Both the position numbers and the translations under genes were made by a program. A model generated the notes under the pieces. It searched no databases, was not told where the DNA came from, and saw only the letters and a list, made by a program, of their open reading frames with translations. A stretch of DNA of 64,000 nucleotides, taken from contig JASHNW010000043.1 of assembly GCA_030041435.1 (NCBI GenBank), positions 1 through 64,000 on the forward strand. Direction: 5' to 3'. Source of the stretch: Acidobacteriaceae bacterium (GTDB lineage Bacteria > Acidobacteriota > Terriglobia > Terriglobales > Acidobacteriaceae). This document shows positions 48,377 to 63,511 of the stretch, one piece after another (position 1 is the first letter of the stretch; every line of letters begins with the position of its first letter).

Positions 48377-49804
48377 CTAGCCTGCGTCGGCGTAACCATC
48401 GCTTTCCGCAGAGTTGATCGCTCCACGAGCCTTACCGGTCGGCTCCGCCCTCGGCGCCTCCAACGTCTCCAGCGATCCGTCGCTTGCCTCGCTCTTCGGC
48501 AGCAGATCCACATCCACCGACCAGTCGCCGGGAGACCTGCCCAGACGTGTCGCCCAGGCGCGCATCCACTGCCGCCGCCGGCCCCTCCGCGCCTTGTCGA
48601 TCGTCCGCTTGCATTGGCGCAGTTCGAACCAGCGCAGATAGCTGCGCACAACCGTTGCCATCGTCATCTGGATGCCGGCTTCGTAGTTGTGCTGCGACAT
48701 CTGCCGCTGCAGTCCCGGTGACTGCAGGATCGCCACCAGCTTCTCGGCCAGGTCCGCAGCGTTGCCCGTCTTGTAAAAGCTGATGGCCATATCGTCGTCC
48801 ACCGCCATGCAGCGAAAATCCGGAATGTCGGCGCACACGATGGGTACGCCGTGTTCGCACGCCTGATGAGCCGGACCGCTGGATCCGGTCGACGAATCGT
48901 AGGGCATCACCAGCAGCGCACTGGTGCGGAACAACTCCGCAACATCCTTGTTCGGCACATAACCCAGGAACCTGATGGGCAGATGCGCCGGCTGCGCATC
49001 TCGAACCGACTCCCAGTATCCCGGCGCCATCGGATGATTGCCGCCTCCCACAATCAGCTGCGCATTCGGCACCTGCTGCAGAACCGACGGAAACGCCTCC
49101 ATCAGCGTCTCCAGCCGCTTATACGTCCCCCAGTGTCCGAATGCGAGAATGCGCAGATCCGGATTGCACCGCTGGCTGAAATCAGGCGGCCGCGAAATCG
49201 TCGTGAACGTTCCGTGCGTCCCCACCAAAATATTTTCCGCGGAGTATTTCCGCATCAGCGTTCTGCGGTAATTCGACAGCAGCACCGACACCGAATCCGC
49301 CTTCAGCAGCGCCCACGTCGCCACGTCTGTGCCTATCCGGTAAACCTTCTCCCGCCGCACTCCCGACTTACCCAGGTCCACGTGTTCCACAATGTGGTGC
49401 AGCGTTATGTGCGTATAGAATCCGGCCGCTCGCGTCAGCGCCGGCGCCGACAAGCCGGCGAAGGCTGCGAATGGATTTTCAGGCGTCCCGAAGCTGGAAA
49501 ATACCAGGTTGAACCACACCACATCCGGTTGCAGCCGCCGAATCGTCTTCAGCAGCCGTACCGGCGTTCCCAAACTTCCGAATCTCCAGCACCGGATCAC
49601 ATGGAAATCCGGCAGTTCCTCGCCACCCTGCCGATGCGTCGACTCGCCGCTTTCGTCTTCTCGACCCTCGCCCTCCGGCAGTTCGTCCGCCAGCACGATC
49701 AGCTCAACGTCCTTATGCCGCTGGATTTCGCGCGCAATGTGGAACGAGTACTCATTCAGCTGTCTCTTGCTGGGAGGAAATGCCGCCACGAAGCAGATCT
49801 TCAT
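48377..49804 (-). CDS. Glycosyltransferase, family-4 type (GT-B fold)
   Basis: A 475-residue GT-B enzyme. The N-terminal half starts KICFVAAFPPSKRQLNEYSF; the C-terminal half has the GT4 marks: ILAFGHWGTYKRLETLMEAF, AQLIVGGGN, IRFLGYVPNKDVAELFRTSA and the donor-binding GSSGPAHQACEHGVPIVCAD, in which the usual second Glu appears as CEHG. It probably adds a sugar to an exported polysaccharide. The ATG at 49804 is preferred over 49819. It overlaps or abuts the stop of the large TPR/barrel gene (49816) on the same strand, so they form one operon. Confidence 0.88.
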   Translation of the reverse strand: MKICFVAAFPPSKRQLNEYSFHIAREIQRHKDVELIVLADELPEGEGREDESGESTHRQGGEELPDFHVIRCWRFGSLGTPVRLLKTIRRLQPDVVWFNLVFSSFGTPENPFAAFAGLSAPALTRAAGFYTHITLHHIVEHVDLGKSGVRREKVYRIGTDVATWALLKADSVSVLLSNYRRTLMRKYSAENILVGTHGTFTTISRPPDFSQRCNPDLRILAFGHWGTYKRLETLMEAFPSVLQQVPNAQLIVGGGNHPMAPGYWESVRDAQPAHLPIRFLGYVPNKDVAELFRTSALLVMPYDSSTGSSGPAHQACEHGVPIVCADIPDFRCMAVDDDMAISFYKTGNAADLAEKLVAILQSPGLQRQMSQHNYEAGIQMTMATVVRSYLRWFELRQCKRTIDKARRGRRRQWMRAWATRLGRSPGDWSVDVDLLPKSEASDGSLETLEAPRAEPTGKARGAINSAESDGYADAG

Positions 49805-49815
49805 CAGCCCTCGCC

Positions 49816-52800
49816 TCAAAATAAGTTGATGCTCACATAGGGGCGAAACTGCTGGTTTGCCCCATGCGTGAAGTTGGGAAACGTCTCTTCCTGAATCCCT
49901 CCCGAAAACCGAATGGGAAACTTCAGGTGGACCTCTCCCGTTTCCTCGTTGTACGTGCGCCCCAGGGGTCGCATGTAAGAAACCGAAAGCCCGTTCTCGG
50001 TCATGTCGTAAATGTGGAACCCCCTCGTGTCGTCATAAGCGCTCGTTGCCTCAATTGCCCAGTTGCGGCTCGGAGAATATTCAAGCGTCGCCGCCGGCCG
50101 CAGCGCCTGCGAAATCGCCGAATGCAGCGGTGAGAACGGCACGATCCGCCACGACCGCAGGTCTTCCGCGATCGCCTGCACATTCAGATGCGTCGAGAAC
50201 CTCCTCGAAAGCCCGATGTACGACGACGTGAAGTAGTTTTCGCTGAACCCCAGCACCTGCGAAGGGAATTGCTGATCGGTCCGTCCCCATCCCGTCACCA
50301 GAGCCGTCCTTCCCCACGGCGCGCCCACGCGGAAGTCGAATGCTCCCGTTAGTGTCTGCGACGAGATGGGGGCTTCTGTGAACGGACCCGACTCCCGGAT
50401 GAAGTAACCATCGGCGGATACCGCGTTGCAGAAGGAACTCGTTGTCACATAAGTGAAAACCCGGAACAGATTCTGATCCATCTGCACCGGCGACAACGAG
50501 TCGCGCCGGATCGTTTCCTGCACCCCGCTGTTCACCGTCACCACGTTCGAGCCCACTCGTATCGACGGAGCCACGCCGAAGTTGAACGACGTATCTGTGG
50601 TGTCGCGGTTCACAATGGAATGCAGCGCCGGCACCGATATCTGTCCGCGCGCATTCCGCAGCTCGAAAAATCCCCCCGCGTTCGGCAGCATTCCCAGATG
50701 CAGATGGTAAGCGGTGGTCCAGTTGGTCTCGATCGACGAGCGCGGCGGCGGCAGCTGCGCTGCGTCGCTCGGCGGCACCGGTCCGGTCGAGCTGAACAGC
50801 TTGGAGTCCAGAACGTACACCGTGCTGTCCTCGAAGATCGAGTGCACCAGCAGGTTCGACAGCACGCTCAGCTGAGGAGTGATTTCGTACCCCTCGCTGG
50901 CGCCCGCATTCAGCATCGCCTGCTCCGCCGTCTGGTCTTCGCCCGTCGCGCTGGCCGCCTGGGCAAACGCCGAGAGTGCCTGCGTGCCGCGGTGTTCCTG
51001 CTCGTAGACATTGGCTTCGGCCAGCAGATACTGGTAGTCCTGACGGCTCCCGTCGCTCTGGCTCACCGCCGCCAGCTCAGCCGCCGCGCGCGTCGTATCT
51101 CCCAGTGCCAGATAGTCGTTCGCCAGGCTCACCCGCACCTCGATATCCGAAGCGCCTGCCGCCTTCGCCCGCTCCAGATAGGTTTCCGATAGCTGATATT
51201 CGTGCATCTGCTCGAGCACGCTGGCCGCCGCGATGTACTGCTCCCCGCTGATGGGAGGCGTCATGTGCGCATCCGCTTCCATCTGCGCCAGCGCGATCTG
51301 CCGCTGCGCATCGGCATCGTGACCCTGCTGCGCCATTAGCTGCGCAACCGCCAGCCGCACACCCACCCGGTTCGCATGCGGCACCACCAGCGCCCTGCTG
51401 AATCGCTCCATGGCCCCATTCTGGTCGCCGAGTGTGCTGAGCGCCTCGCCCGTGGAAATGTAGATGTCGCTGATCGGCGAGCCCGCACCGGTGGAGGGGT
51501 CATCCTCCGTCGCCGGCATTCTGCTGGCATATTCCTCCGCAAGCTGCACATTGCGCATAGTCTGCTGCCGGTCGTCCAGACCCGCATAGGCGCGTGCCGC
51601 CAAAGCATAAATCGCCGCGTTGTCCGGCAGATACTTCTCTGCCGTATCCAGTTGCGCCACGGCGTCGTGATACCGCCGCTCCGCAAAATACACGTTGCCC
51701 AGACCCATGTAGAGCGTCCCGTCGTCCGGGGTGAACTTCAGCGCGGCCTTATATTCCGTGCCGGCTTTGGTCAGCAGCCCCTCGCGCCCGTAGGCCGTCG
51801 CCCGGATGGTGTGGTACAGCTTCGAGTCGCCCAGCTCATCCTCCGACAGCTGCGACTGCCTCACCGCTTCATCGTTGCGATTCAGCGCCAGATCAGAAAA
51901 GGCAAGCCCCAGATGGGCCTGTCCGTTTTTGGGCTCGCGCTCGATCGCCTGCTCGAAGTCGCTGGCCGCCTCAGCGGGGTCGCGCAAATCGTTGCGCACG
52001 AAGCCGCGGTTCACATACGCCGTCGCGACCGTCGGATCGCGATTCAGCGCTTCCGTAAACGCCTGCTCCGCCTGCTCCTGCTCGCCATCGTGCTTGTACA
52101 CGTACCCCGCCAGCAGCGGAATGTCCGGCTCCTTCGCGAGAATATTCATGTACTTCTTCGTCAAATCGCTCAGTTCTCCGTATTTCTCCTCGTTCAGCAG
52201 GTCGTAGCCGAGATAGACCACAACATCGCGGTCTCGTGGCAGATCTTTGATCGCTTCTTCGCCCAGCTGTGCAGATCGCTGCGTATCTCCCTTGAAGTAG
52301 AAATATCGCTCCTCCTGTGCCAGCAGCAGCGGAGTCGTCTCCATGTTGTCGCTCACGCGATGCAGCCACGTATCCGCCAGCGTAAGGTCATGGCCCTCGA
52401 TCGCCGCGTTCATCCCACCCGCCACGATCAGCGCATTCTTCGGGGCCACCGCGTAGCCCCTTTCGTAATAAACCTGTGCCTTTTTGTATTCGTGTCCGGC
52501 GGTATAGATGTCGCCCAGAGCAAGATACGGTACGTACAGCGATGGATAATCCCGCAACAGCGCCTCGAAATATTTCTCCGCATCCTGGTCGTCGCCCGCC
52601 GCGCGCGACGCATATCCCATCGAAGTCAGCGCGTAGCGGTTGCGCGGATCCGTCGCCAGAATCTTCCCGTAGATGGCGATCGCGTCGTTGGTCCGCCCCA
52701 GCTTCATCAGCACGTCGCCGTCCAGTTGCAGGCTGTTGGGGTCGTGCGCATTCAGGGCCAGCGACGCGTTCATGTCGTTCAGAGCGGCGTCCTCTTCCCC

Positions 52801-54117
52801 GGAGTTCATTTCGATCTGGGCGCGAAGGCGAAGGAATGCCGCCCGATCGCTTCCCTGCTCGTTCAGCCCGCCAATCTGCGCGCGCGCAATCTGCAGCTGT
52901 TTTTGTGCCAGGTCGGACTCGCTCAGGTTCTCGTACAGCGCCTGCAGATCCATGTGCAGCTGGATCCCGTACAGTGGCCCTTCCACCGGCGCCGCCGGCA
53001 GATTGGCCACGGCTTCGCTGTACTCCCGCACCGCGTCTTCGTCGTGATCCTGCGTCTGCGCTATCTCTGCGCGGATTGCGTGCAGACGGTAATAGTTAGG
53101 ATCGAGTTTCGCGGCGCGCTCCAGAAATGGGTTCGCCTGGTCGATGGCGTTCGCGGCCACCTGAGCCTGCGCCGCCGAAAGCTGCAGCCCCACATCGCGC
53201 GGCATCGCGTCAGCCGCATGCGCATACGTATCCGCCGCCTGCTTCAGGTCGCCGTTCAGGCTGTAGGTGTAAGCGAGTTCGGCCACCACGTCGGGTGCAG
53301 GGTTGCGGATCGCCTTCAGCTCCTCGATCGCCTTCCCATCGTCTCCCGTATCCCGGTAATAACCGGCCAGCGATCGCTCCACGTCGGGATTATTCGGTGC
53401 GCGCGTTTTCGCCAGCTGCAGATAGTGATTCGCCTGGTCCATCTGCTTGAGATGCTCGTACGAGATTGCCAGCAGCAGCTCCTGTCTCGCTCCCGGTGCA
53501 ACGTGTTCCGCCTTGCTCAGCGGATCGAGCGCATCCGTGTAGTCACCCGATCGCATCTGCAGATTGGCCAGCAACAGCAGGTCATCCGTCTGATTCGGAT
53601 CCGATGCCAGCACCTGCTTCAGGAGCCGCTCCGCTTCGTTGCTCTGTCCCGTCATGCTGTAAGTCTGTGCCAGTCCCGATAAGCCGTTCAGCGACGCAGG
53701 CTGCAAGCGAAGCCCCTGCCGGTACGCGTCCGCCGATTGCCCGTATTTCCCGTCCAGCCGCGCCGCATACCCCAGCAAAAACCACAGCTGCGCGTCGTTC
53801 GGAGCGGACTGCGCTGCCCGCGCCGCATATTCGCGCGCAAGGGCATGGTCGCCGCGCTGCAGCGCGAGCTCCGCCGCGCGCGCCAGTCGGGCGTTCTGAA
53901 TATTCGAACCCCAGCCCAGCTGCTGCCCGGCTCCCTGCGTCTGGCCGGATTGGGCCTCGGGTTTCGCTGTAGCGTCAGATCCTACCTTGTAGGTCTGCGG
54001 ATGAGCAGGAAATGCAAACGCGGCGAACAGGATCGCGCACGCAATTTTCAGGCACTCAGGTCTGGCAATCAAACGGGTCACCAACGTCCATTGCGACTTA
54101 AGGCCGTTGGATTCCAT
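49816..54117 (-). CDS. Giant TPR protein with C-terminal outer-membrane barrel (BcsC/PgaA-like layout)
   Basis: A 1433-residue exported protein. A signal peptide (cleavage near residue 41, AHPQT) is followed by about 1000 residues of tandem TPRs (for example DAQLWFLLGYAARLDGKYGQ, NRYALTSMGYASRAAGDDQD, DGTLYMGLGNVYFAERRYHD). From about residue 1110 the sequence becomes beta-rich and ends YVSINLF with a terminal Phe, the outer-membrane insertion signal. TPR plus barrel is the plan of BcsC and PgaA, which export cellulose and PNAG. The adjacent glycosyltransferase and polytopic protein fit an exopolysaccharide exporter. It is divergent from the GT-C-like operon. Confidence 0.82.
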   Translation of the reverse strand: MESNGLKSQWTLVTRLIARPECLKIACAILFAAFAFPAHPQTYKVGSDATAKPEAQSGQTQGAGQQLGWGSNIQNARLARAAELALQRGDHALAREYAARAAQSAPNDAQLWFLLGYAARLDGKYGQSADAYRQGLRLQPASLNGLSGLAQTYSMTGQSNEAERLLKQVLASDPNQTDDLLLLANLQMRSGDYTDALDPLSKAEHVAPGARQELLLAISYEHLKQMDQANHYLQLAKTRAPNNPDVERSLAGYYRDTGDDGKAIEELKAIRNPAPDVVAELAYTYSLNGDLKQAADTYAHAADAMPRDVGLQLSAAQAQVAANAIDQANPFLERAAKLDPNYYRLHAIRAEIAQTQDHDEDAVREYSEAVANLPAAPVEGPLYGIQLHMDLQALYENLSESDLAQKQLQIARAQIGGLNEQGSDRAAFLRLRAQIEMNSGEEDAALNDMNASLALNAHDPNSLQLDGDVLMKLGRTNDAIAIYGKILATDPRNRYALTSMGYASRAAGDDQDAEKYFEALLRDYPSLYVPYLALGDIYTAGHEYKKAQVYYERGYAVAPKNALIVAGGMNAAIEGHDLTLADTWLHRVSDNMETTPLLLAQEERYFYFKGDTQRSAQLGEEAIKDLPRDRDVVVYLGYDLLNEEKYGELSDLTKKYMNILAKEPDIPLLAGYVYKHDGEQEQAEQAFTEALNRDPTVATAYVNRGFVRNDLRDPAEAASDFEQAIEREPKNGQAHLGLAFSDLALNRNDEAVRQSQLSEDELGDSKLYHTIRATAYGREGLLTKAGTEYKAALKFTPDDGTLYMGLGNVYFAERRYHDAVAQLDTAEKYLPDNAAIYALAARAYAGLDDRQQTMRNVQLAEEYASRMPATEDDPSTGAGSPISDIYISTGEALSTLGDQNGAMERFSRALVVPHANRVGVRLAVAQLMAQQGHDADAQRQIALAQMEADAHMTPPISGEQYIAAASVLEQMHEYQLSETYLERAKAAGASDIEVRVSLANDYLALGDTTRAAAELAAVSQSDGSRQDYQYLLAEANVYEQEHRGTQALSAFAQAASATGEDQTAEQAMLNAGASEGYEITPQLSVLSNLLVHSIFEDSTVYVLDSKLFSSTGPVPPSDAAQLPPPRSSIETNWTTAYHLHLGMLPNAGGFFELRNARGQISVPALHSIVNRDTTDTSFNFGVAPSIRVGSNVVTVNSGVQETIRRDSLSPVQMDQNLFRVFTYVTTSSFCNAVSADGYFIRESGPFTEAPISSQTLTGAFDFRVGAPWGRTALVTGWGRTDQQFPSQVLGFSENYFTSSYIGLSRRFSTHLNVQAIAEDLRSWRIVPFSPLHSAISQALRPAATLEYSPSRNWAIEATSAYDDTRGFHIYDMTENGLSVSYMRPLGRTYNEETGEVHLKFPIRFSGGIQEETFPNFTHGANQQFRPYVSINLF

Positions 54118-54244
54118 CGGCGCCGGGAACGTTGGCTGCGCCGGTTCGCAGCTTCACCGCGTCGTTCCATACCCTCAACGCTGTCCGCAAACAGGCAACT
54201 GCCCTTGGCTGTCCCGAATCCAAGCTGACTTCAAGAGGCGTCAC

Positions 54245-56005
54245 TTGCAAAGATCTGAAACCGCCGCCGCATCGCCGCGCCCCATACCCATGAGCTTCAT
54301 TCTCATGGTTGCGGTCGCCATCCACCTGCCCCTGCTGCTGATGCAGTTGCCGCTCAAGTCCTACGACACCAACTTCCACATTTTCTTCGCGTCGCATTAC
54401 GTCCACCACTGGTTCAATCCGTGGAACGTCAAGTGGTTCGCTGGCTTCTCCCAAACCACCTACCCGCCGCTCGCGCAGCAGTGGGTCGCGGTCGTCTCGC
54501 GGGTTCTCGGCCTGAACATGGCTTACATGGCCGTGCAGTTTGCCGCCATTTTGCTGCTCGCCGTAGGCGTTTACCGCTTCGCCCTCTTGTGGGTCAGCCC
54601 GCGCGCAGCCTCCATCGCCGCGCTGGCCGCCGTTCTCGCGGGATCGGAAAGTTTCCTCGTCTATTCCGCGGGCCAGCTCGCCACCACCTGCTCTGCTCCC
54701 ATTCTCCTCAACGCCTTGCCCTACCTCTACGATTGGCTCCGCTACGGCAAAGGGCGTTCCCTGCTCAAGGCAACGGTGCTGTTTGCAGCAACCGCCGCAG
54801 TGCACCACGCCACCATCATCTTTGCATCGATGTTCTTCGCGCTCCCCGTTCTCGCTCTTGCCTGGATCGACCGTGAGGAGTCCGATGAGACCTCCGGCTC
54901 GGGCTTCGCGGCGCGCACCGTCGCCATCGTTATCCTCACCGCCGCCGCCATCGCAGTAGTCCTTCTCCCCTTCTGGATCGGCCTCTTCCGCTATCCCATC
55001 ACCCAGACCCCCATCCCCCACCCCAGCCGCGCCAACTACATCCTCAGCCCGCAGTGGGGCATCAACTACTTCCTCGTTCCCTACGGAGCTCTGATCCTCG
55101 CGCTGCCGTTCATCATCGTGCGCGGATCCCGCGTCGCCCGCCTCCGTCCGCTCATGCTTGGCTTCTGGCTGTGCTTCATGATCGGCCTTGGCGGCACCAC
55201 GCCCATCGGTCTTTGGCTGCTGCGCCGCGCCTTTGACGTGCTGACCTTCGAGCGCTTCAGCTACTGGGCAACGCTGCTTGCTTTGCCCATCCTCGGCGCG
55301 CTGGTTGCCGGCCTGGTCGCGCGATTCCGCCTCAAGGCTGCCGTTCCCGTCGCTGTGCTGGCCGCCTTTACCTGCGCCATGGCCGCCTCATGGTCCCACT
55401 ACAAACCGGCCGACGCGGAAGACTTCAATGTCGCGCCCGTCGCCCAGTGGCTCAATCGCGACGGTCACGACAACTACCGCTACGTCACTCTCGGCTTCGG
55501 CAACAAGCTCTCGCGCCTGGCCGTCCTCACCGACGCCACCAGCGTCGATGGCGAATCGAACTCCTCGCGCATGTTGCCCGAGCTCACCAAGTACGGCGGC
55601 GGCGCGCTCACCGACGCCAAATATTTTGGAACCGGTGGCCTCGAGTCTCTGCGCGCCATGCTCCGCCACGCCGATCGCTACGGCCTCAAGTGGGCCATCG
55701 TCCGCGATCCCTATTACGAGCCGCTGCTGGTCTTCGCCGGCTGGCGCCACGTCGACAACCTCGACGACAACACCATCACCATCTGGGCCAAAGACGGCGT
55801 GCCTCCCGCCACTCCCATGAACACCTCGCAAATGCCCCCGCCATGGGAGGGTTATCTGTGGGGCACGCTGCCTTTCGGCAGCAGCATCCTCGCCATCCTC
55901 GTCGTGCTCATCCCGGACAAGCGGCGCCGCGCCTGGCGCGAGGACGAAGCAACGGTCACGCCCATAACCCAGGAAACGCCGCTTTCGGGGAGGCTCGTCT
56001 CGTGA
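54245..56005 (+). CDS. Polytopic membrane protein, GT-C-like
   Basis: A 586-residue protein with about ten helices and a soluble domain after residue 400. Its first periplasmic loop begins SYDTNFHIFFASHYVHHWFN, where the acidic-aromatic stretch resembles the catalytic loop of GT-C enzymes and of the 6-pyruvoyl-tetrahydropterin-synthase-related membrane family. I list a TTG at 54245 with AGAGG six bases upstream; an ATG at 54290 has no ribosome site but starts right at the first helix, so the start is open. It heads a four-gene operon with 4-base overlaps and is divergent from the TPR/barrel gene. A glycan polymerase or sugar transferase role is inferred. Confidence 0.68.
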   Translation: MQRSETAAASPRPIPMSFILMVAVAIHLPLLLMQLPLKSYDTNFHIFFASHYVHHWFNPWNVKWFAGFSQTTYPPLAQQWVAVVSRVLGLNMAYMAVQFAAILLLAVGVYRFALLWVSPRAASIAALAAVLAGSESFLVYSAGQLATTCSAPILLNALPYLYDWLRYGKGRSLLKATVLFAATAAVHHATIIFASMFFALPVLALAWIDREESDETSGSGFAARTVAIVILTAAAIAVVLLPFWIGLFRYPITQTPIPHPSRANYILSPQWGINYFLVPYGALILALPFIIVRGSRVARLRPLMLGFWLCFMIGLGGTTPIGLWLLRRAFDVLTFERFSYWATLLALPILGALVAGLVARFRLKAAVPVAVLAAFTCAMAASWSHYKPADAEDFNVAPVAQWLNRDGHDNYRYVTLGFGNKLSRLAVLTDATSVDGESNSSRMLPELTKYGGGALTDAKYFGTGGLESLRAMLRHADRYGLKWAIVRDPYYEPLLVFAGWRHVDNLDDNTITIWAKDGVPPATPMNTSQMPPPWEGYLWGTLPFGSSILAILVVLIPDKRRRAWREDEATVTPITQETPLSGRLVS

Positions 56006-57126
56006 AAGGAATACTCCTCGCTGTCGTTCTCTTCATCGCCACCATCGGACTGCTGGTCATCGGCACGCTCTCGCCCATTCCTACCGCCGTCTATTACGCC
56101 GGCGGCAAAAGCCTCACCCGGGCTTCTTCCACGCCGCAGGATGCTGTCGAAAACCTTGCCGTCCAGATTCGCCAGCGCTCCTTTGGCGACGCATACGGCA
56201 GCCTCGCTAACCGAGCCGAATTCACTGAACCCGAATTCGTCCAGGACCTGACGGGAAACACGCTCAGCCTGCGCACCTTTGCCACGCTCGAAGACTTCGA
56301 AACCCAGCCCCTGCATGAGTCCGCGGACGATGCCGAAATGCTGCTGAAGCTCCACTGGTCCACCGTCGTCGGTCCCTACGAGACGACCCGCGATCTGCAC
56401 GTTGTCCGCAACGGCGATCGCTGGGCCGTGGACTGGCCTCTGGTGAAAGCACCCCATGTGCCTCCGCAGGTGATCCCCGTCAATTACCTGCGCTGGGATG
56501 TGATCTACAGCGGCGCCGGCGATGACTGGGGAGCCCAGGACGTGCAGGCCCCGCGCATCCGTATCGTCGATATGCGCCCTGTGAATAGGGCTGAGGGCGT
56601 CGTCGTGATGGGCGAGCTTCTCAATGAGGACATTGTCCCCGCTTTCGTGGGAGTCCGCGCCACGCTTCTTTCCAAAAGCGGTTCGCCGATCGCCAGCGAG
56701 GGCGCCTTCGACATGATCTCGCACACCCTTCTGCCCAAACAGGTCACGCCCTTCCTCATCCGCTTTCCCAACGTGGACCTGTCTCAGGTAGGCAGCATCC
56801 GCATGGGTCCGATCTCCGTGCTCGTTTCCGCGTCTGCCGATCCCGTGGTCGAGATCGAGAACCAGAAATACAATCTCGATCCCGAAGCGTCGCTCACCGG
56901 TCAGCTCTCCAATCAGAGCGGGCAAACCGTCAACATCGCCCATGTCCTCAGCACCTTCTACGACAAGAACGGCCAGCTGGTATGGGTCGCCGGCCAGTAT
57001 GTCGACCGCGCCCTTCCCCCGCAGACGCCCGTGGACTTCAGCGTCCAGGTCCCCGAAGATCTGGCCAAGCAAATCAGCAGCGAGCGCACTATCGTAGCCA
57101 CGTACAGCTCGGGGAATTCGCTGTGA
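56002..57126 (+). CDS. Membrane-anchored extracytoplasmic protein, unknown function
   Basis: A 374-residue protein with an N-terminal helix (KGILLAVVLFIATIGLLVIG) and a long outer part: an NTF2-like domain (AVENLAVQIRQRSFGDAYGS, residues about 46-155) followed by beta-rich domains with RIVDMRPVNRAEGVVVMGEL and LTGQLSNQSGQTVNIAHVLS, which look like FxLYD-type strands found in secreted bacterial proteins. The GTG start overlaps the upstream stop (GTGA), and GGGGAGG lies eight bases before it. I recognise no named family for the whole protein. Confidence 0.7.
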   Translation: MKGILLAVVLFIATIGLLVIGTLSPIPTAVYYAGGKSLTRASSTPQDAVENLAVQIRQRSFGDAYGSLANRAEFTEPEFVQDLTGNTLSLRTFATLEDFETQPLHESADDAEMLLKLHWSTVVGPYETTRDLHVVRNGDRWAVDWPLVKAPHVPPQVIPVNYLRWDVIYSGAGDDWGAQDVQAPRIRIVDMRPVNRAEGVVVMGELLNEDIVPAFVGVRATLLSKSGSPIASEGAFDMISHTLLPKQVTPFLIRFPNVDLSQVGSIRMGPISVLVSASADPVVEIENQKYNLDPEASLTGQLSNQSGQTVNIAHVLSTFYDKNGQLVWVAGQYVDRALPPQTPVDFSVQVPEDLAKQISSERTIVATYSSGNSL

Positions 57127-57998
57127 CAGCTTCGCGTGCATCGCTTTTGGCTGCATGTGCGCTGGCTTTGGCGTCGGTCACCTCCGCGCAGGACGCCAAC
57201 ATGACCCTTCCGCAAACTGTAACCGCGGGCAGCGCCTTTTCCGTTCCCACCTCCGGCAGCGGCCCGGCCGTGCTCTATATCGTGGGACCCGATCAGGCGC
57301 TGCGCCGCGATGTGCAGCTGGGAAACCCCGTCTCCATCGCCGCAGGCGATCTCTATAACGCCGGCGAGTACCTCGCCATCATCGTCGCAGGCTCGTCGAG
57401 CAGCTCCGGCGAGCTGGAGGTTACGCCCGCGCCGCATCCGGACACCCTCAGCTTCCTCGCCACACCCTCCCGCGTTCCGGTGGGCCTGCACAACGGCATC
57501 AACGGAGCGGTCTACGTTTTCGACGCCTACCACAATCTCATCGTCACCCCCATGCCGGTTTCCTTTGAGCTGTCCGGATCCTCCGGCCCCTCTCAGGCGC
57601 GCACCATCACGACCAGCCACGGCGTGGCCTGGACGGAGATCGATTCAGCCTCAAAACAGGGATCGGCAAAGTTCATCGCTCAGGCCGGAGGCATAGCGAC
57701 GACGCGCGTGATCGACGAAGTTCCCGGCGATCCTTGCGGCTTGACCATCAGCGCCCAGCCCGATGGTGCGAAGCTTCGCGTGCAAACCGCTCTGGTGCGC
57801 GACTGCAGCGGCAATCCCATCCCCGACGGAACAATCGTGACCTTCACCGAAAACTACAACGGCGCCCAGACCACAGCCGACGTCCCCATCAAGAAAGACA
57901 TCGCTCAGATCGACATGCCGGCCTACTCCGGCGCAACCATCTCCGTCGCCAGCGGCGTAGTGGCCGGAAATGAGATTCGCTGGGGAGGGGGACGATGA
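57123..57998 (+). CDS. Exported Ig-like-fold protein, unknown function
   Basis: A 291-residue exported protein: signal peptide (TASRASLLAACALALASVTS), then three beta-rich segments. The middle one, LSFLATPSRVPVGLHNGING followed by VYVFDAYHNLIVTPMPVSFE, and the last, LVRDCSGNPIPDGTIVTFTE, read as bacterial Ig-like (Big1-type) domains. The GTG start overlaps the stop of the gene before it (GTGA). Together with its neighbours it probably forms part of an envelope complex. Confidence 0.7.
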   Translation: MTASRASLLAACALALASVTSAQDANMTLPQTVTAGSAFSVPTSGSGPAVLYIVGPDQALRRDVQLGNPVSIAAGDLYNAGEYLAIIVAGSSSSSGELEVTPAPHPDTLSFLATPSRVPVGLHNGINGAVYVFDAYHNLIVTPMPVSFELSGSSGPSQARTITTSHGVAWTEIDSASKQGSAKFIAQAGGIATTRVIDEVPGDPCGLTISAQPDGAKLRVQTALVRDCSGNPIPDGTIVTFTENYNGAQTTADVPIKKDIAQIDMPAYSGATISVASGVVAGNEIRWGGGR

Positions 57999-58492
57999 GC
58001 CTGCGCATCCTCGCAGCCGGCTGCGTGTTGCTTTTTGCCACAGGCGCGCTGGCAGACCAGCCTTCAGTCCAGGTGCAGCCTCCCGATCTCCAGGGCTCGC
58101 GGCCGCTGGAGAAGCAGACCGCCGCCGCCGTCGTGCGCGATTATCTCGAGTCCTGGCAGAAGTTCCGTGCTGCCCTCGACCAGAACCAAGCCGCGCTGCT
58201 CGATCCCGATTTTGTCGGAACCGCACGCACCAAACTGGCCTCCGCTATCGGCGAACAAGCGAAGCTCGGCATTCACACCCATTACCAGGATGAAAGCCAC
58301 AAGCTGCAAATCGTCTTCTATTCTCCCGACGGTCTGTCCATCCAGATGATCGATAACGTCGAATATGACCAGCAGGTGCTCGATCGCGATCGCGTACTGG
58401 CCACGCAGCACGTCAAAACGCGCTATGTCGTCGTCATGACTCCCGCCGAAGTCCGCTGGAAAGTCCGCGTCTTTGAGGCCACACCGGAATAG
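57995..58492 (+). CDS. Small exported protein, unknown function
   Basis: A 165-residue protein with a signal peptide (MSLRILAAGCVLLFATGALA) and an NTF2-like domain: a helix AAAVVRDYLESWQKFRAALD, then YQDESHKLQIVFYSPDGLSI and VKTRYVVVMTPAEVRWKVRV. Its ATG overlaps the stop before it (ATGA). It closes the four-gene coupled operon begun at 54245. NTF2-like folds recur in this operon, which suggests related partners. No family name recognised. Confidence 0.7.
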   Translation: MSLRILAAGCVLLFATGALADQPSVQVQPPDLQGSRPLEKQTAAAVVRDYLESWQKFRAALDQNQAALLDPDFVGTARTKLASAIGEQAKLGIHTHYQDESHKLQIVFYSPDGLSIQMIDNVEYDQQVLDRDRVLATQHVKTRYVVVMTPAEVRWKVRVFEATPE

Positions 58493-58600
58493 TCAGTCCC
58501 CGCACAATCGCAAATCAGGGGAACCGGAACTGCGCCTGGCAGCGATCGCGTGGGTGCGGCGGCGCTGCGTTTATGCGCCGGGCAGAGCCCCAGTCCGCGC

Positions 58601-59617
58601 TTACTGCGCCCCTGCGCGTCCCGGCTGCTGTCCCGCTGCGCTCTCCACCAGGCTCGTCGGAGCCTGCCCGCCGCAGCTCGGCAGCCCCGGCTCGATCGCC
58701 GATCCCTCTTCGTAATCGTTCCACGTCTCAATCAGCACAAAGGGAATCGTCTGCCCCGCCGGATAAATCTTCTTCCAGAAGTTGAACGTGTCCTCGAGCG
58801 TTTGCCCGCACCGCGCGGAGATATGCCGGTTCAGCCCCCAGGACGCCTTGCTGTCGTCGAACCCGGCCCACGCCCCGCCCACGATCAGCTTGTCCGGGTA
58901 TTGTGTTCCCATCGTCTGGTAAAAATTGCTCAGATACTGCTCGCCCCAGTGGCTCCCGTCGTTCGCCCAACCCTGCGGCCCGGGGTTGATCCAGGGATAA
59001 AATCCGTCGAAATCCTTTGCGTTCTGACCCGGCAAATTCTCGTCGATCAGCAAGGGAGCCGGATTCCACTGGTTCACCACCTGACGCACTTTGTCCCAGT
59101 CCGTCGCGTGGCCATGTGGAAAAACGAAAATCAGCGGCCGCCCATCGTACGTCAGGTACGCTTCGCTGCCCCGCGAATTTGCCGCCATGTACGTATCGTG
59201 GAACATCGTCAGATCGGCAATCGCCTCGTCCGTTGCTCCGTCTTCCTGTCCCGGCGCCTCGTACATCATGGCAATGTGGAAGTTTTCCTTCGCCGCCAGC
59301 TTCTGCAACCGCGCATAGCTCTGGTCGATATACGCATCGCGGTCCCCGTACCAGTCCACCACGAAGGCCGTGAGTCCCATCGCCTTCGCTCCGTCAATTT
59401 GTCGGCGCATCACATCCGGGTCGTGTGACGTATATCCCACCGAAATATGATTGTGTTCCCCGAACCAGCCTTCGTACACGGCCAGCAGTTCCGGCGAACT
59501 GCCCGTTGCCCGGTACTTCAGTTCCACAGGCCCCGAGCACGCGCGAGCCGCCAGCAGAAAAAAAAACAGGAGTGCGCTCGCGCGTCCGATCATAACGATA
59601 CCTTTTAGAAGCGTCAT
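58601..59617 (-). CDS. Exported GH99/GH71-like glycoside hydrolase
   Basis: A 338-residue protein with a signal peptide (about 1-26) and a TIM-barrel of the GH99-like type: YEGWFGEHNHISVGYTSHDP, RQIDGAKAMGLTAFVVDWYG, then LTYDGRPLIFVFPH and the C-terminal VLIETWNDYEEGSAIEPGLP, whose Asp/Glu pair matches the WNxxxEG catalytic end of GH71/GH99 enzymes. These cleave alpha-mannans or alpha-glucans. I chose the ATG at 59617 (GGAAG six bases before); 59593 is also possible. It lies among glycan genes, so it may trim or recycle the exopolysaccharide. Confidence 0.75.
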   Translation of the reverse strand: MTLLKGIVMIGRASALLFFFLLAARACSGPVELKYRATGSSPELLAVYEGWFGEHNHISVGYTSHDPDVMRRQIDGAKAMGLTAFVVDWYGDRDAYIDQSYARLQKLAAKENFHIAMMYEAPGQEDGATDEAIADLTMFHDTYMAANSRGSEAYLTYDGRPLIFVFPHGHATDWDKVRQVVNQWNPAPLLIDENLPGQNAKDFDGFYPWINPGPQGWANDGSHWGEQYLSNFYQTMGTQYPDKLIVGGAWAGFDDSKASWGLNRHISARCGQTLEDTFNFWKKIYPAGQTIPFVLIETWNDYEEGSAIEPGLPSCGGQAPTSLVESAAGQQPGRAGAQ

Positions 59618-59812
59618 CGAATCTTCCGGGTTGTCACCTGCAACTGCGATTCCGAGCAGCCCCTGACACATATTTCCGCATCGGAGAATGTAGCTGCGGT
59701 CGAGAACCCGTCTTCTTTCCGCGCTCTGAGCCATTTCCGGCCTGCCAGGCTGATTTCAAAGATCTGCGGAGCTGCCTGGGCTCTCCTTCGGTTTCGCTGG
59801 AGACTCAAGAAC

Positions 59813-61894
59813 GTGTCGAAAAGTCCGTCGGAAAAATCGAGAACGTTGCAGGCGCGCATTGTTTCCGGAAGCGTCGTGTTGCTTTCCGGTTCGAGCCTGG
59901 CAACCGGACTCAACCTCGCCTACAACGTGGCCATCGCGCGCTTCCTCGGTCCCAGGGGCTTCGGGCACGCCACCGTCGTATACACGCTCCTCACCCTCAT
60001 TTCGGCGGCTACCCTCTCTTTTCAGATCGTTGCCGCCAAAGTCGTCGCGCAGCAGCCTTCCGCAGAAGCAAAGAGTGCCGTATATCGCGCCCTGCACCGC
60101 GACTCCTGGATTTGCGGCCTCATCGTCGCCGCCTTGCTCGGCGTTTTTCGCGGCCAGATCACCGCCTACCTCAACCTGCCCACCCCCTTGCTCGTCGATC
60201 TTCTCGCCGCCGGCGCCGCGTTTTACGTCCCTCTCGGTACTCGGCGCGGCTACGTCCAGGGCGCATTCGGATTCCGCCGCTTTGCCGCCAATCTCGTCCT
60301 CGAAGGTGCCGTTCGCCTCCTCGGATCGCTCTTCATGATCCTCCTCGGCACCGGCGTCACCGGCGTCATCGCCGCCAACGCAGCAGCCATGGCCATCTCC
60401 TGGGTCGCCATCGCGCCCACCCTCGCCGCTCCCGTTCCCAATCCCATTCGTCTCGCCGCCGCATTCCGCGAGCTCTCTCAGGCCGTTGTCTTCTTTGCCG
60501 GTCAGGTCCTCATCAACAACGCCAGCATCGTCCTCGTCAAACACTACCTCCCCGCCGTTGAAGCCGGCCTCTATTCTGCCGTTGCCATGGTGGGCCGCGT
60601 CATCTTCACGCTCTCTTCCGCCGTCGTCTACAGCATGTTCCCGCTCGTTGCCGGCACCAGCGCCGAAGAGAGAAAAAAGGTCAACGTCCTCACCACCTCC
60701 CTGCTGCTCGTGCTCGGTATAGGCTCCGTCCTCTCTCTCGGCCTCCGCGTCATGCCCGCCGCTGTGTGGACGACATTCTTCGGTTCCAAATTCGCGCTTT
60801 CCGGACCCTACAGCCTCTCCTATCTGTTCGCGCTGTTTGCCATCACCACCGTCATTTATTCCCTCAGCGTCGTCATCATCACCTACGAAATGTCCTACAG
60901 GATCGCGAACACCAGCTGGGTGCAGCTCGCCTTTAGTGCGGTGGTCGTAGCCGGAATCTGCCGCTTCCACTCCTCCCTGCATCAGGTCATCGTGGTGCAG
61001 CTCGTGCTCATGCTCGTCCTGCTGCTGCTGGTCGGAGCTCCCTTTCTGCGCCAGGCCCTGCGTGATTCCGATTCCGCCGGCGAGGCCGGTTCCCCATCCA
61101 TCCGCCTCCTTCGCCGCATCACAGAAGACAAGGTCATTGCCGAATTCCTCAGAGGGGAATTCGAGAACGACGCTTACCGCAGTTACCGCGAGTCGATGGG
61201 CCCGATGGTCATGGAGCCGAATCTGGACAACCCCGACGAGAACGCCAGGCGCCGCGCTCTCCTCTTCCTGCGCCATCTCTCGCTGTGGAAGGAGATTCCA
61301 CCCGGTACCGAATGGTTCGAGGCAGAGTTGCGCGATGCCGGCCTCGCCCAGATACGCGTCTTTCCCCGCGCCCAGTGGCGAAAAGTCGCCCGCGGCAGTT
61401 TTGCCATCACAGAAATCGTCGAGCGCATGCAGGCCCGCAAGGACAATCCCGGCCCCTTTGTCGCCAAGATCGCAGCTCTTCGCCGCCGCCTGGTTCAGGA
61501 GAACTCCATGCCCGGCTCCGTGGTCCTCATCGGCCTCAACGAATCCCAGCCTCTCACCATCATCGACGGCAACCATCGCTTTGTCGCCGCCATTCTTGAG
61601 GGCCAGGTCCGCCGCCTTCGCCTTCTCTGCGGACTCTCCCCGAAGATGAATCGTTGCTGCTGGTACAGAACCAATCCGCTCACCCTGGCCCGCTACGCCC
61701 GCAATCTGCTCCGCCAGCTCACGCGCCATCCCCACGCGGAGCTGGCACAGCTCTGCGTGAACCCCCGCCTCGGCCTCGATAACTCCTGGGCGCGTCCGGC
61801 TTTGGAAGACGGATTGCACCAGGATAAGGCAATTGCTTTTGCACGTTATGACGTCATTCGCACTACGGAAGGGACCCCTGGCAATGATTATTAA
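59813..61894 (+). CDS. Wzx-type polysaccharide flippase fused to a ParB/sulfiredoxin-like domain
   Basis: A 693-residue protein. Residues 10-412 are a polysaccharide flippase of the MATE/Wzx type with about twelve helices (SGSSLATGLNLAYNVAIARF, LGPRGFGHATVVYTLLT). From about 430 to 693 is a soluble cytoplasmic domain with LTIIDGNHRFVAAILEG at 581-597; DGNHR is the signature of ParB/Srx nuclease-fold proteins. I know no common flippase with this tail. It probably moves a lipid-linked glycan across the membrane, with the tail sensing or modifying a nucleotide or partner. The STAS gene overlaps its end by 11 bases. Confidence 0.75.
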   Translation: MSKSPSEKSRTLQARIVSGSVVLLSGSSLATGLNLAYNVAIARFLGPRGFGHATVVYTLLTLISAATLSFQIVAAKVVAQQPSAEAKSAVYRALHRDSWICGLIVAALLGVFRGQITAYLNLPTPLLVDLLAAGAAFYVPLGTRRGYVQGAFGFRRFAANLVLEGAVRLLGSLFMILLGTGVTGVIAANAAAMAISWVAIAPTLAAPVPNPIRLAAAFRELSQAVVFFAGQVLINNASIVLVKHYLPAVEAGLYSAVAMVGRVIFTLSSAVVYSMFPLVAGTSAEERKKVNVLTTSLLLVLGIGSVLSLGLRVMPAAVWTTFFGSKFALSGPYSLSYLFALFAITTVIYSLSVVIITYEMSYRIANTSWVQLAFSAVVVAGICRFHSSLHQVIVVQLVLMLVLLLLVGAPFLRQALRDSDSAGEAGSPSIRLLRRITEDKVIAEFLRGEFENDAYRSYRESMGPMVMEPNLDNPDENARRRALLFLRHLSLWKEIPPGTEWFEAELRDAGLAQIRVFPRAQWRKVARGSFAITEIVERMQARKDNPGPFVAKIAALRRRLVQENSMPGSVVLIGLNESQPLTIIDGNHRFVAAILEGQVRRLRLLCGLSPKMNRCCWYRTNPLTLARYARNLLRQLTRHPHAELAQLCVNPRLGLDNSWARPALEDGLHQDKAIAFARYDVIRTTEGTPGNDY

Positions 61895-62282
61895 AATGCG
61901 TGCCGTAACCGTTCATGAAGTGCCCGAACGGGTTACCCCAGCTGTGGAACGGCACTTCCTGCGCGAGTTGCAGAGTTACGTGGAGACCGAGCGCCCCCGT
62001 CTGGTTCTCGACTGCTCCAAAGTCCTGCACATGGATCGCGCAACCATCCACCTGATTCTTTCCTGTCTGGAAGAGGCCATGAAGCGCAACGGTGACGTCA
62101 AACTCGCTGCTGTCAGTCCAGACGCCATCGTGCCGCTGCATCTGTCCGGCGTCAGTCGCCTCTTTGAGATCCACGCCACGACAGCAGAAGCAATCCAGAG
62201 TTATCGTCACCATTCCGCCGCTGCGTCCCCGCCTTCGTTTGCATCGGCCGAGCTCGAGAAGGCTGCAGAAAGCGTAGCGTGA
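61884..62282 (+). CDS. STAS-domain protein (anti-sigma factor antagonist-like) without the usual phospho-serine
   Basis: A 132-residue single STAS domain: strand VTVHEVPERV, then RPRLVLDCSKVLHMDRATIH and the helix LSCLEEAMKRNGDVKLAAVS. In anti-anti-sigma factors the loop reads D-S-S-G and the Ser is phosphorylated; here it is D-R-A-T, so control by a Ser kinase seems lost or altered. The ATG at 61884 lies inside the end of the flippase gene, so the two are coupled, and the STAS protein may act on the flippase or its ParB-like tail and not on a sigma factor. An earlier in-frame ATG at 61833 is less likely. Confidence 0.78.
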   Translation: MIIKMRAVTVHEVPERVTPAVERHFLRELQSYVETERPRLVLDCSKVLHMDRATIHLILSCLEEAMKRNGDVKLAAVSPDAIVPLHLSGVSRLFEIHATTAEAIQSYRHHSAAASPPSFASAELEKAAESVA

Positions 62283-62340
62283 CGGTTCTCGGCTGTTCGA
62301 GCCGCCACGACCCGGTAAGAAGCAAGTTCGGGGGTAAGCA

Positions 62341-62748
62341 ATGAGAATCTCAATTTCCTGGGTCGAGCGGACGATCGCCTCTTCCCTTGCCATGCTGCTG
62401 GTCGCTCCGCTCGGTCTGGCTGCGACAACTCCGCTGCCCTCAGCGCCGCTGCCTCAGGTCGACCAGGCGCAGTCCGCTCCGCAGAATAATTCTGCTGCTC
62501 AGAGCACCCCGGCCGGCCAGCCTCAGGCCGCTCCGCAGCAAACACCCGCGCCCGTCGGCACCGCCGCCGCGCCCGATATCCGGCCCGCTGGGGTTGCCGT
62601 CTCGCGGCCTGCCGGGGCCGCCATCGCTCCCGCCAAACAGCGGCGCGTTCGCATTTTCACAATCCGCGTTGCTCTGCTCGTGGGGGCAGGCATCGCTATT
62701 GGTACCGTCGCGGCTGCCTCCATGGCCAGTCCCGCAAGGCCGCATTGA
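62341..62748 (+). CDS. Small exported Ala/Pro-rich membrane protein
   Basis: A 135-residue protein with a signal peptide (cleavage near residue 28, GLAAT), a disordered Ala/Pro/Gln middle (about 30-95) and one helix near the C-terminus (ALLVGAGIAIGTVAAASMAS) after a basic RRVR patch. I recognise no family. It lies 58 bases after the STAS gene and 28 before the kinase-like gene, so it belongs to the same run. The layout is that of a tether or a small envelope partner. Confidence 0.6.
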   Translation: MRISISWVERTIASSLAMLLVAPLGLAATTPLPSAPLPQVDQAQSAPQNNSAAQSTPAGQPQAAPQQTPAPVGTAAAPDIRPAGVAVSRPAGAAIAPAKQRRVRIFTIRVALLVGAGIAIGTVAAASMASPARPH

Positions 62749-62776
62749 TTTTTGTCTTCGGTTCATCGAGAACACT

Positions 62777-63511
62777 ATGGGTTCAGATTCGGATTCAGGG
62801 TCCCGGCCGGCCATCCTCATCAGCTTTTCGGGGATCGATGGCGCCGGCAAAAGCACACAAATTGACCATCTTTGCGCAACCCTCCGCGATGCCGGCCTGC
62901 TCGTCAGCACCGTCGTCTTTTGGGACGATGTCGCCGCTCTCAAGCGCCTTCGCGAGGATACTGGCCACAGGATTTTCCGCGGCGATAAAGGCGTCGGAAC
63001 CCCCCAGGCGCCCATCCACCGCCGCGACAAGAATGTCCGCTCTCCGCTGATGACTCTGCTGCGCCTCGGCATGTACCTCCTCGACGCCCTCTCCCTGCGC
63101 CGCGTCTCCGCCTGCGCCCGTCGCTCCGGCGCCGACATCGTAATCTTCGATCGCTACATCTACGATGAGCTGGCCAATCTCAATTTGCGCAATCCCGCGG
63201 TGTGCCTCTGCCTGCGCGCTCTCATACCCCTGGTCGTGCATCCTCACATAAGCTTTATCCTCGATGCCGACCCAGCGCAGGCTCGCGCACGTAAGCCGGA
63301 ATATCCGATCGAGTTCCTGCACCTCAATCGCAATGCCTATCTCGCGCTCAGCAGCCTTGTCGGCGGCATCGTCGTCATTCCGCCCCTGCCCCTGCCCGAG
63401 GCAAAAGCCGAAGTTGTCCGGTCTGTCCTCGCCCGGCTCCCTCGGCACGATCTTGTCTCCGGCCCCAAAACGCGACTGGACGGGCCCGATGCCCGTCCAG
63501 TCGCCTTCTGA
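62777..63511 (+). CDS. Thymidylate-kinase-like P-loop protein
   Basis: A 244-residue NMP-kinase-fold protein: Walker A FSGIDGAGKSTQIDHL at residues 17-32, the DR motif FDRYIYDELANL in the place of the dTMP-kinase DRY motif, and FILDADPAQARARKPEYPIE as the LID region. True thymidylate kinases are shorter and more conserved. This variant, like the NTP_transf_5 protein, is typical of polysaccharide loci, where it may phosphorylate a sugar or lipid. The ATG at 62777 fits the fold; the open frame upstream is antisense-like low complexity. A bidirectional terminator overlaps its last codons. Confidence 0.72.
   Translation: MGSDSDSGSRPAILISFSGIDGAGKSTQIDHLCATLRDAGLLVSTVVFWDDVAALKRLREDTGHRIFRGDKGVGTPQAPIHRRDKNVRSPLMTLLRLGMYLLDALSLRRVSACARRSGADIVIFDRYIYDELANLNLRNPAVCLCLRALIPLVVHPHISFILDADPAQARARKPEYPIEFLHLNRNAYLALSSLVGGIVVIPPLPLPEAKAEVVRSVLARLPRHDLVSGPKTRLDGPDARPVAF
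63474..63502. terminator. Bidirectional terminator overlapping the end of the P-loop gene
   Basis: GACTGGACGGGC (63474-63485) pairs perfectly with GCCCGTCCAGTC (63491-63502) around a 5-base loop. On the minus strand the stem is followed by GCGTTTTGG, so it can stop the gene ending at 63552; on the plus strand it lies across the stop of the kinase-like gene. Confidence 0.7.

Follow-up and report, generated by a model that had tools for sequence, protein, structure and literature searches.

The 64,000-nucleotide stretch of Acidobacteriaceae DNA analysed here (the window; contig JASHNW010000043.1) encodes a protein in which a predicted Wzx/MOP-type flippase is fused to a C-terminal module with a candidate ParB/sulfiredoxin (Srx)-type fold, and the fusion gene overlaps that of a small STAS-domain protein. 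The fusion is conserved and its parts are inherited together. The components are ordinary; their combination is unusual and conserved, and its occurrence in many soil Acidobacteria could imply a new form of control or modification of glycan export. The reading that we favour, with a probability of roughly 0.42, is that the ParB/Srx-type module, partnered by the STAS protein, exerts a nucleotide-dependent control over the flippase's cytosolic mouth; it was preferred to readings of the module as an enzyme, as a scaffold or as a domain of some other fold.

Layout and conservation of the fusion

The fusion ORF (59813-61894, forward strand) starts with GTG and comprises 693 codons (693 aa), in agreement with the preliminary description of this DNA, and a matching GTG start was found in several homologs. 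The AF2 model of its flippase part adopted the 12-helix fold of MOP transporters, and comparison of residues 2-390 of the model by VIA gave Z values of 27.9 to MATE and 25.8 to WzxE. The score of the window's flippase against the Pfam family Polysacc_synt (PF01943) was 21.6 bits, under the cut-off of 28.2, which was passed by the homologs L047 (40.2 bits), L056 (36.9 bits) and L050 (29.3 bits), the first of which is itself a fusion. These model comparisons and homologs support a MOP/Wzx-type flippase in the N-terminal part and uphold the Wzx/MATE assignment made earlier for residues 10-412. The protein shares with WzxE, PF01943 members and MurJ the 12-TM MOP fold, conserved charged residues within the TM part and a location in a glycan gene cluster.

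Both termini of the flippase domain were predicted to lie on the cytosolic side, as they do in WzxE, which cannot do without the cytosolic tail that its C-terminus forms close to the lumen entrance (PMC11706664). In WzxE this tail is short and Arg-rich, and nucleotide-binding domains are absent from MATE structures (PMC11706664). The fusion differs in that a folded module of ~220 residues begins directly where WzxE would have the tail. The last residues of the fusion protein (651-693) were missing or had diverged among the aligned relatives. An open frame of 687 aa runs antisense to nearly the whole fusion gene (59756-61819, reverse strand) and is probably a composition-driven shadow ORF of this GC-rich gene.

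A search for the fusion in other genomes, as had been proposed, was successful: 86 distinct fused modules were collected, from isolates and MAGs, and the possibility of an assembly artefact was rejected on these grounds. The module query had matches, fused or separate, in 33 of 100 genomes of relatives, and a module profile found matches in 108 of the 250 genomes examined from the same family but in only 8 of the 396 that spanned the phylum. When named genomes were scanned, 146 loci were obtained, 80 of which were kept, all of them labelled as Acidobacteriota or its taxa with the exception of one MAG labelled Rhodanobacteraceae. The fusion cluster of that MAG (L111) nests among Acidobacteriota sequences, and the MAG is probably mis-binned or mislabelled. 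A plasmid or viral origin was also considered and rejected, the module being absent from PLSDB and no relative being confirmed in IMG/VR.

The module tree (98 rows) contained 86 fused modules, 7 encoded by separate adjacent genes, 2 free-standing ones and 3 outgroup sequences. The 7 separate-gene lineages formed one clade (100/99). All seven have the gene order STAS-flippase-module with an ATGA overlap between the flippase and module genes, and this stop/start junction coincides with the linker site of the fusion; at several of these loci an ATGA-type overlap also joins STAS and flippase. In the window's group, the STAS gene comes after the fusion gene. Whether fusion or fission came first depends on the root of the tree, which is unsure. 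Three genomes of the window's genus harbour second, divergent fused copies (L039, L066 and L068), which form a paralogous branch and have no STAS, Pro/Gln-rich protein or kinase genes beside them.

Fold and motifs of the C-terminal module

Modelled alone by AF2, the module (residues ~429-650) folded separately with a mean pLDDT of 84.7. Alignment of relatives revealed the signature FPRAxW ... PLTI[IL][DE]GNHR ... CGxSPxMxxCCWY, in which GNHR was invariant across 36 aligned relatives and was preceded by D or E. Other invariant residues, in module numbering, were E67, P69, T72, W74, R92, S182, C189 and W190.

Sequence searches against Pfam, NCBIfam and PHROGs gave no match for the module, and no ParB/Srx protein turned up when the PDB was searched by sequence, whether the query was the module, its profile or a broader profile; the best hit was a chance-looking match to UL13. 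The fusion locus was also absent from the matches of a PF02195 search of its own genome. A 2025 survey of ParB-fold fusions was based on PF02195 and does not mention flippases in its main text (PMC12704722); the family on which it was built fails to detect the module. Many fusions of ParB folds are known, and orphan ParB folds often have no Box III (PMC12704722, PNAS 2025 survey).

At the structural level, the VIA-align 2 list for the module consisted entirely of ParB, Noc, KorB, Srx, SerK and SbnI, or of uncharacterised proteins among these, with Z values (Srx 5.0, the best; SbnI 3.8; SerK 3.6) in the range about which the tool warns. Matches in a viral library were mostly named ParB/Sulfiredoxin, and the best Foldseek E was 0.6. 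The strand order of the module is that of ParB (a strand, helices, the VLLIG strand, PLTILDGNHR and the LRFLCG strand). In hhalign, DGNHR fell on the P-motif of ParB_N, in an alignment of 19 columns only (probability 6%, E 0.006), and alignment with ParB proteins placed DGNHR opposite GERR/GNHR. A PF02195 ParB_N protein encoded in a related genome (L185, 1501-1758; 54.8 bits) has GNHR instead of GERR as its P-motif, an instance of the GNHR variant in recognised ParB-type proteins.

The models support a divergent ParB/Srx-type fold, though weakly in score. The ParB/Srx fold that the preliminary description had read from DGNHR in the C-terminal ~260 residues is supported by the position of the motif and by a fold list confined to one superfamily; the scores are weak and the extent has to be narrowed to residues ~429-650. 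Likewise, the comparison with ParB CTPases proposed there returned a separately folded model, a list of ParB/Srx type and the P-motif in register, but with Z values of at most 5.0 and Foldseek E values of at least 0.6. These scores, a best Z within the range reached by common arrangements and a PDB profile search without ParB would all suit a module of another fold whose DGNHR resemblance and weak matches are coincidental. We consider this very improbable, given that the VIA list belongs throughout to a single superfamily, that the strand order and the register of the P-motif agree, and that a true PF02195 protein has the same GNHR.

The module resembles ParB, Noc, KorB and PadC (PF02195) in strand order, in its GxxR P-motif (Box II) and, weakly, in fold. 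It differs from these ParB-CTPase proteins in lying under Pfam detection, in its membrane partner, instead of DNA, and in having no Box III ENLQR, HTH or dimer domain, none of which was found in the aligned relatives; the chain stops soon after the module. SerK, SbnI and Srx, ParB/Srx folds that act outside DNA binding, share the fold superfamily in the VIA list, and the module is distinguished from them by an additional N-terminal helical part and by its fusion to a transporter. The sulfiredoxin motif is GGCHR, with a catalytic Cys; the position of this Cys is an Asn in every module relative, so that G-C-H-R becomes G-N-H-R. Through GNHR, the module is predicted to be probably nucleotide-binding. 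CTP cannot be inferred as its ligand, because ENLQR, HTH, dimer domain and Srx Cys are missing and related folds bind ATP, CTP or GTP; sequence is no reliable guide to which of the three a ParB fold binds (PMC12704722).

The STAS gene and the surrounding cluster

The STAS domain was recognised by PF01740 (46.2 bits, E=4e-12, cut-off 22.6). The gene starts at the ATG at 61884, which is backed by homologs beginning MLITMRAVTVHEVP; since the homologs share this ATG, the 11-nt overlap with the end of the fusion gene (61884-61894), already pointed out in the preliminary description, is real. The absence of the phospho-serine from the D-R-A-T loop was likewise correct for the window copy, which has Ala; the position varies among 75 relatives (Ala in 34, Ser in 26, other residues in 15).

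Of the 65 fused loci with room for a STAS gene, 48 had one at ≤2.5 kb, as did all 7 separate loci; when not adjacent, the gene was usually elsewhere in the genome. None was nearby in 12 of the 65 fused loci with room, and a strict dependence on STAS in the form of adjacency was rejected while co-occurrence was kept. Close STAS homologs (88-197 bits) were present in 9 of 10 module-positive genomes, whereas no score in the 11 module-negative genomes exceeded 75 bits; the Fisher p=3e-5 for this contrast ignores the kinship of the genomes and includes some positives that are in the profile. The suggested co-occurrence was supported, and the best reading is that STAS belongs to the same functional unit as flippase and module, in which it may physically contact the flippase.

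Table 1. Features of the fusion gene and its cluster in the window.
Feature	Coordinates	Strand	Evidence and remarks
GT4 glycosyltransferase	48377-49804	-	PF13692 E=5e-16
1433-aa TPR-rich PrsT/PgaA/BcsC-like protein	49816-54117	-	TPR families; PrsT/PgaA/BcsC matches sub-threshold
Four genes: large multi-TM, 374-aa, Ig-like secreted and 165-aa secreted proteins	54290-58492	+	Order conserved across loci
GH71/GH99-like glycoside hydrolase, divergent	58601-59734	-	PF03659 E=1e-7, just under cut-off; conserved in cluster
Wzx/MOP-type flippase domain	59813-61054	+	Residues 1-~414, 12 TM helices; AF2 model and VIA
Linker, flippase to module	61055-61096	+	Residues ~415-428; pLDDT <50 at 420-427
ParB/sulfiredoxin-fold-like module	61097-61762	+	Residues ~429-650; alignment, AF2, VIA list, hhalign register
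DGNHR, equivalent of GxxR P-motif (Box II)	61565-61579	+	Residues 585-589
Fusion-protein tail, low confidence	61763-61894	+	Residues 651-693; pLDDT mostly <60
STAS-domain protein, 132 aa	61884-62282	+	PF01740; 11 nt shared with fusion gene; loop D-R-A-T
Pro/Gln-rich small protein, secreted or membrane	62341-62748	+	Position next to STAS conserved
Thymidylate-kinase-like P-loop kinase	62777-63511	+	PF02223 E=1e-7; position conserved

The cluster extends in the window over 48377-63511, with about a dozen genes, and is conserved in Terriglobia; a hexapeptide nucleotidyltransferase-like protein is an additional member in other lineages. Its gene content points to the synthesis and export of a glycan, and the GT4, TPR exporter and GH99-like neighbours would be in keeping with a flippase that transports a lipid-linked glycan outwards. 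The cluster has apparently not been described so far: searches of an open-access library, judged from titles and abstracts, gave no description of it, nor of a flippase linked to either ParB or STAS. It would be a conserved glycan cluster of abundant soil bacteria.

In the Pel system, too, a single cluster encodes a MOP-like protein (PelG), a GT4 glycosyltransferase (PelF) and a TPR exporter of the outer membrane (PelB), a set paralleled in the window. We know of no ParB/Srx or STAS component in the Pel system, and Pfam gave the window's flippase no PelG-type match.

The flippase of the fusion was missing from all 25 module-negative genomes tested, with both positive controls detected, and a neighbouring cluster gene was missing from 24 of the 25. 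The exception (G014) was rejected as a case of a cluster without module, its contig ending within the cluster. That neighbouring gene and flippase are both missing together with the module indicates that the whole cluster is the unit of gain or loss.

Possible action of the module on the flippase

In the favoured reading, the Wzx-type flippase would move a lipid-linked glycan unit outwards, and the module would sit on its cytosolic C-terminus, at the lumen entrance by comparison with WzxE. Whether as one fused protein or as a pair of coupled subunits, flippase and module would act as a unit, with the small STAS protein as regulatory partner. The GNHR P-motif of the module would bind a nucleotide, and the bound, unbound or hydrolysis state would determine whether the cytosolic mouth opens, closes or is loaded, the whole unit working inside the conserved Terriglobia cluster for glycan synthesis and export. 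We infer this nucleotide binding and gating from the conservation of fused and separate forms, the ATGA coupling, the co-inheritance of flippase and STAS, the MOP fold, the ParB/Srx-type lists, the register of the P-motif and the essential tail of WzxE. Counting against gating are the low fold scores, the lack of a Pfam, NCBIfam or PHROGs match, the absence of Box III and the fact that the Wzx proteins characterised so far have been reported as ATP-independent (PMC11706664). The co-inheritance is also a limited support, as in the tested set it covers the whole cluster, beyond flippase, module and STAS. Of the nucleotide-gated glycan exporter with a STAS partner envisaged in the preliminary description, the flippase, the fusion and the STAS co-occurrence stand, and gating becomes one among three mechanisms.

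How Wzx proteins are energised and controlled is an open question, as MATE folds have no nucleotide domain and proton antiport found no support in the WzxE structure paper (PMC11706664). A family of flippases joined to such a module would offer a direct way into the nucleotide control of glycan flipping and would extend the repertoire of ParB-fold fusions to membrane transport. That it represents a class of nucleotide-controlled glycan flippases outside ABC transporters, in which a ParB/Srx-type nucleotide switch built into a MOP flippase gates or powers transport and STAS is an accessory subunit, is a rather doubtful proposal.

A stoichiometric complex would equally yield the observed fusion/fission history and operon coupling if the module were a non-nucleotide scaffold that had lost ligand binding and brought partners (STAS, the kinase or glycosyltransferases) to the flippase. 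There is a precedent in mycobacterial MviN (MurJ), a MOP flippase whose C-terminus is a cytosolic pseudokinase domain and whose binding partner is FhaA. The analogy concerns the way of working, in that the flippase has both a partner and, at its C-terminus, a regulatory domain in the cytosol; the MviN domain is unrelated to the module and the substrate of MviN is a peptidoglycan precursor. The invariance of GNHR in 36 of 36 aligned relatives would nevertheless be superfluous in a pure scaffold, and we regard the scaffold as improbable.

Nucleotide-dependent gating has also to be weighed against an enzymatic role. The invariant polar and aromatic residues outside the P-motif would fit an active site equally well, and the characterised folds of the superfamily that do not bind DNA (SerK, SbnI and Srx) are ATP-binding modules of enzymes (PMC12704722). 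The module could therefore be a phosphotransferase in the style of these proteins that acts at the cytosolic mouth just before flipping and modifies either the carrier or the lipid-linked glycan itself, the fusion serving to channel the substrate. This would be in line with the kinase-like and nucleotidyltransferase-like genes adjoining the module and with its existence as a separate gene, at two loci away from any flippase (L048, 9586-10563; L051, 9560-10582). However, no residue-by-residue correspondence of the module to the catalytic residues of SerK, SbnI or Srx was established, and its Asn replaces the sulfiredoxin Cys; a phosphotransferase seems to us possible but somewhat unlikely.

The two free-standing modules form their own clade (100/99), and their genomes (G022 and G015, respectively) additionally carry a fused copy. 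More distant free-standing relatives with [DE]GHxR were found at L157 (1296-1892), L187 (7001-7591) and L188 (7004-7579); a Pfam scan of two of them returned no match, and the three gave no clue to function. Their hosts are another Acidobacteriota family and Kitasatosporales megaplasmids.
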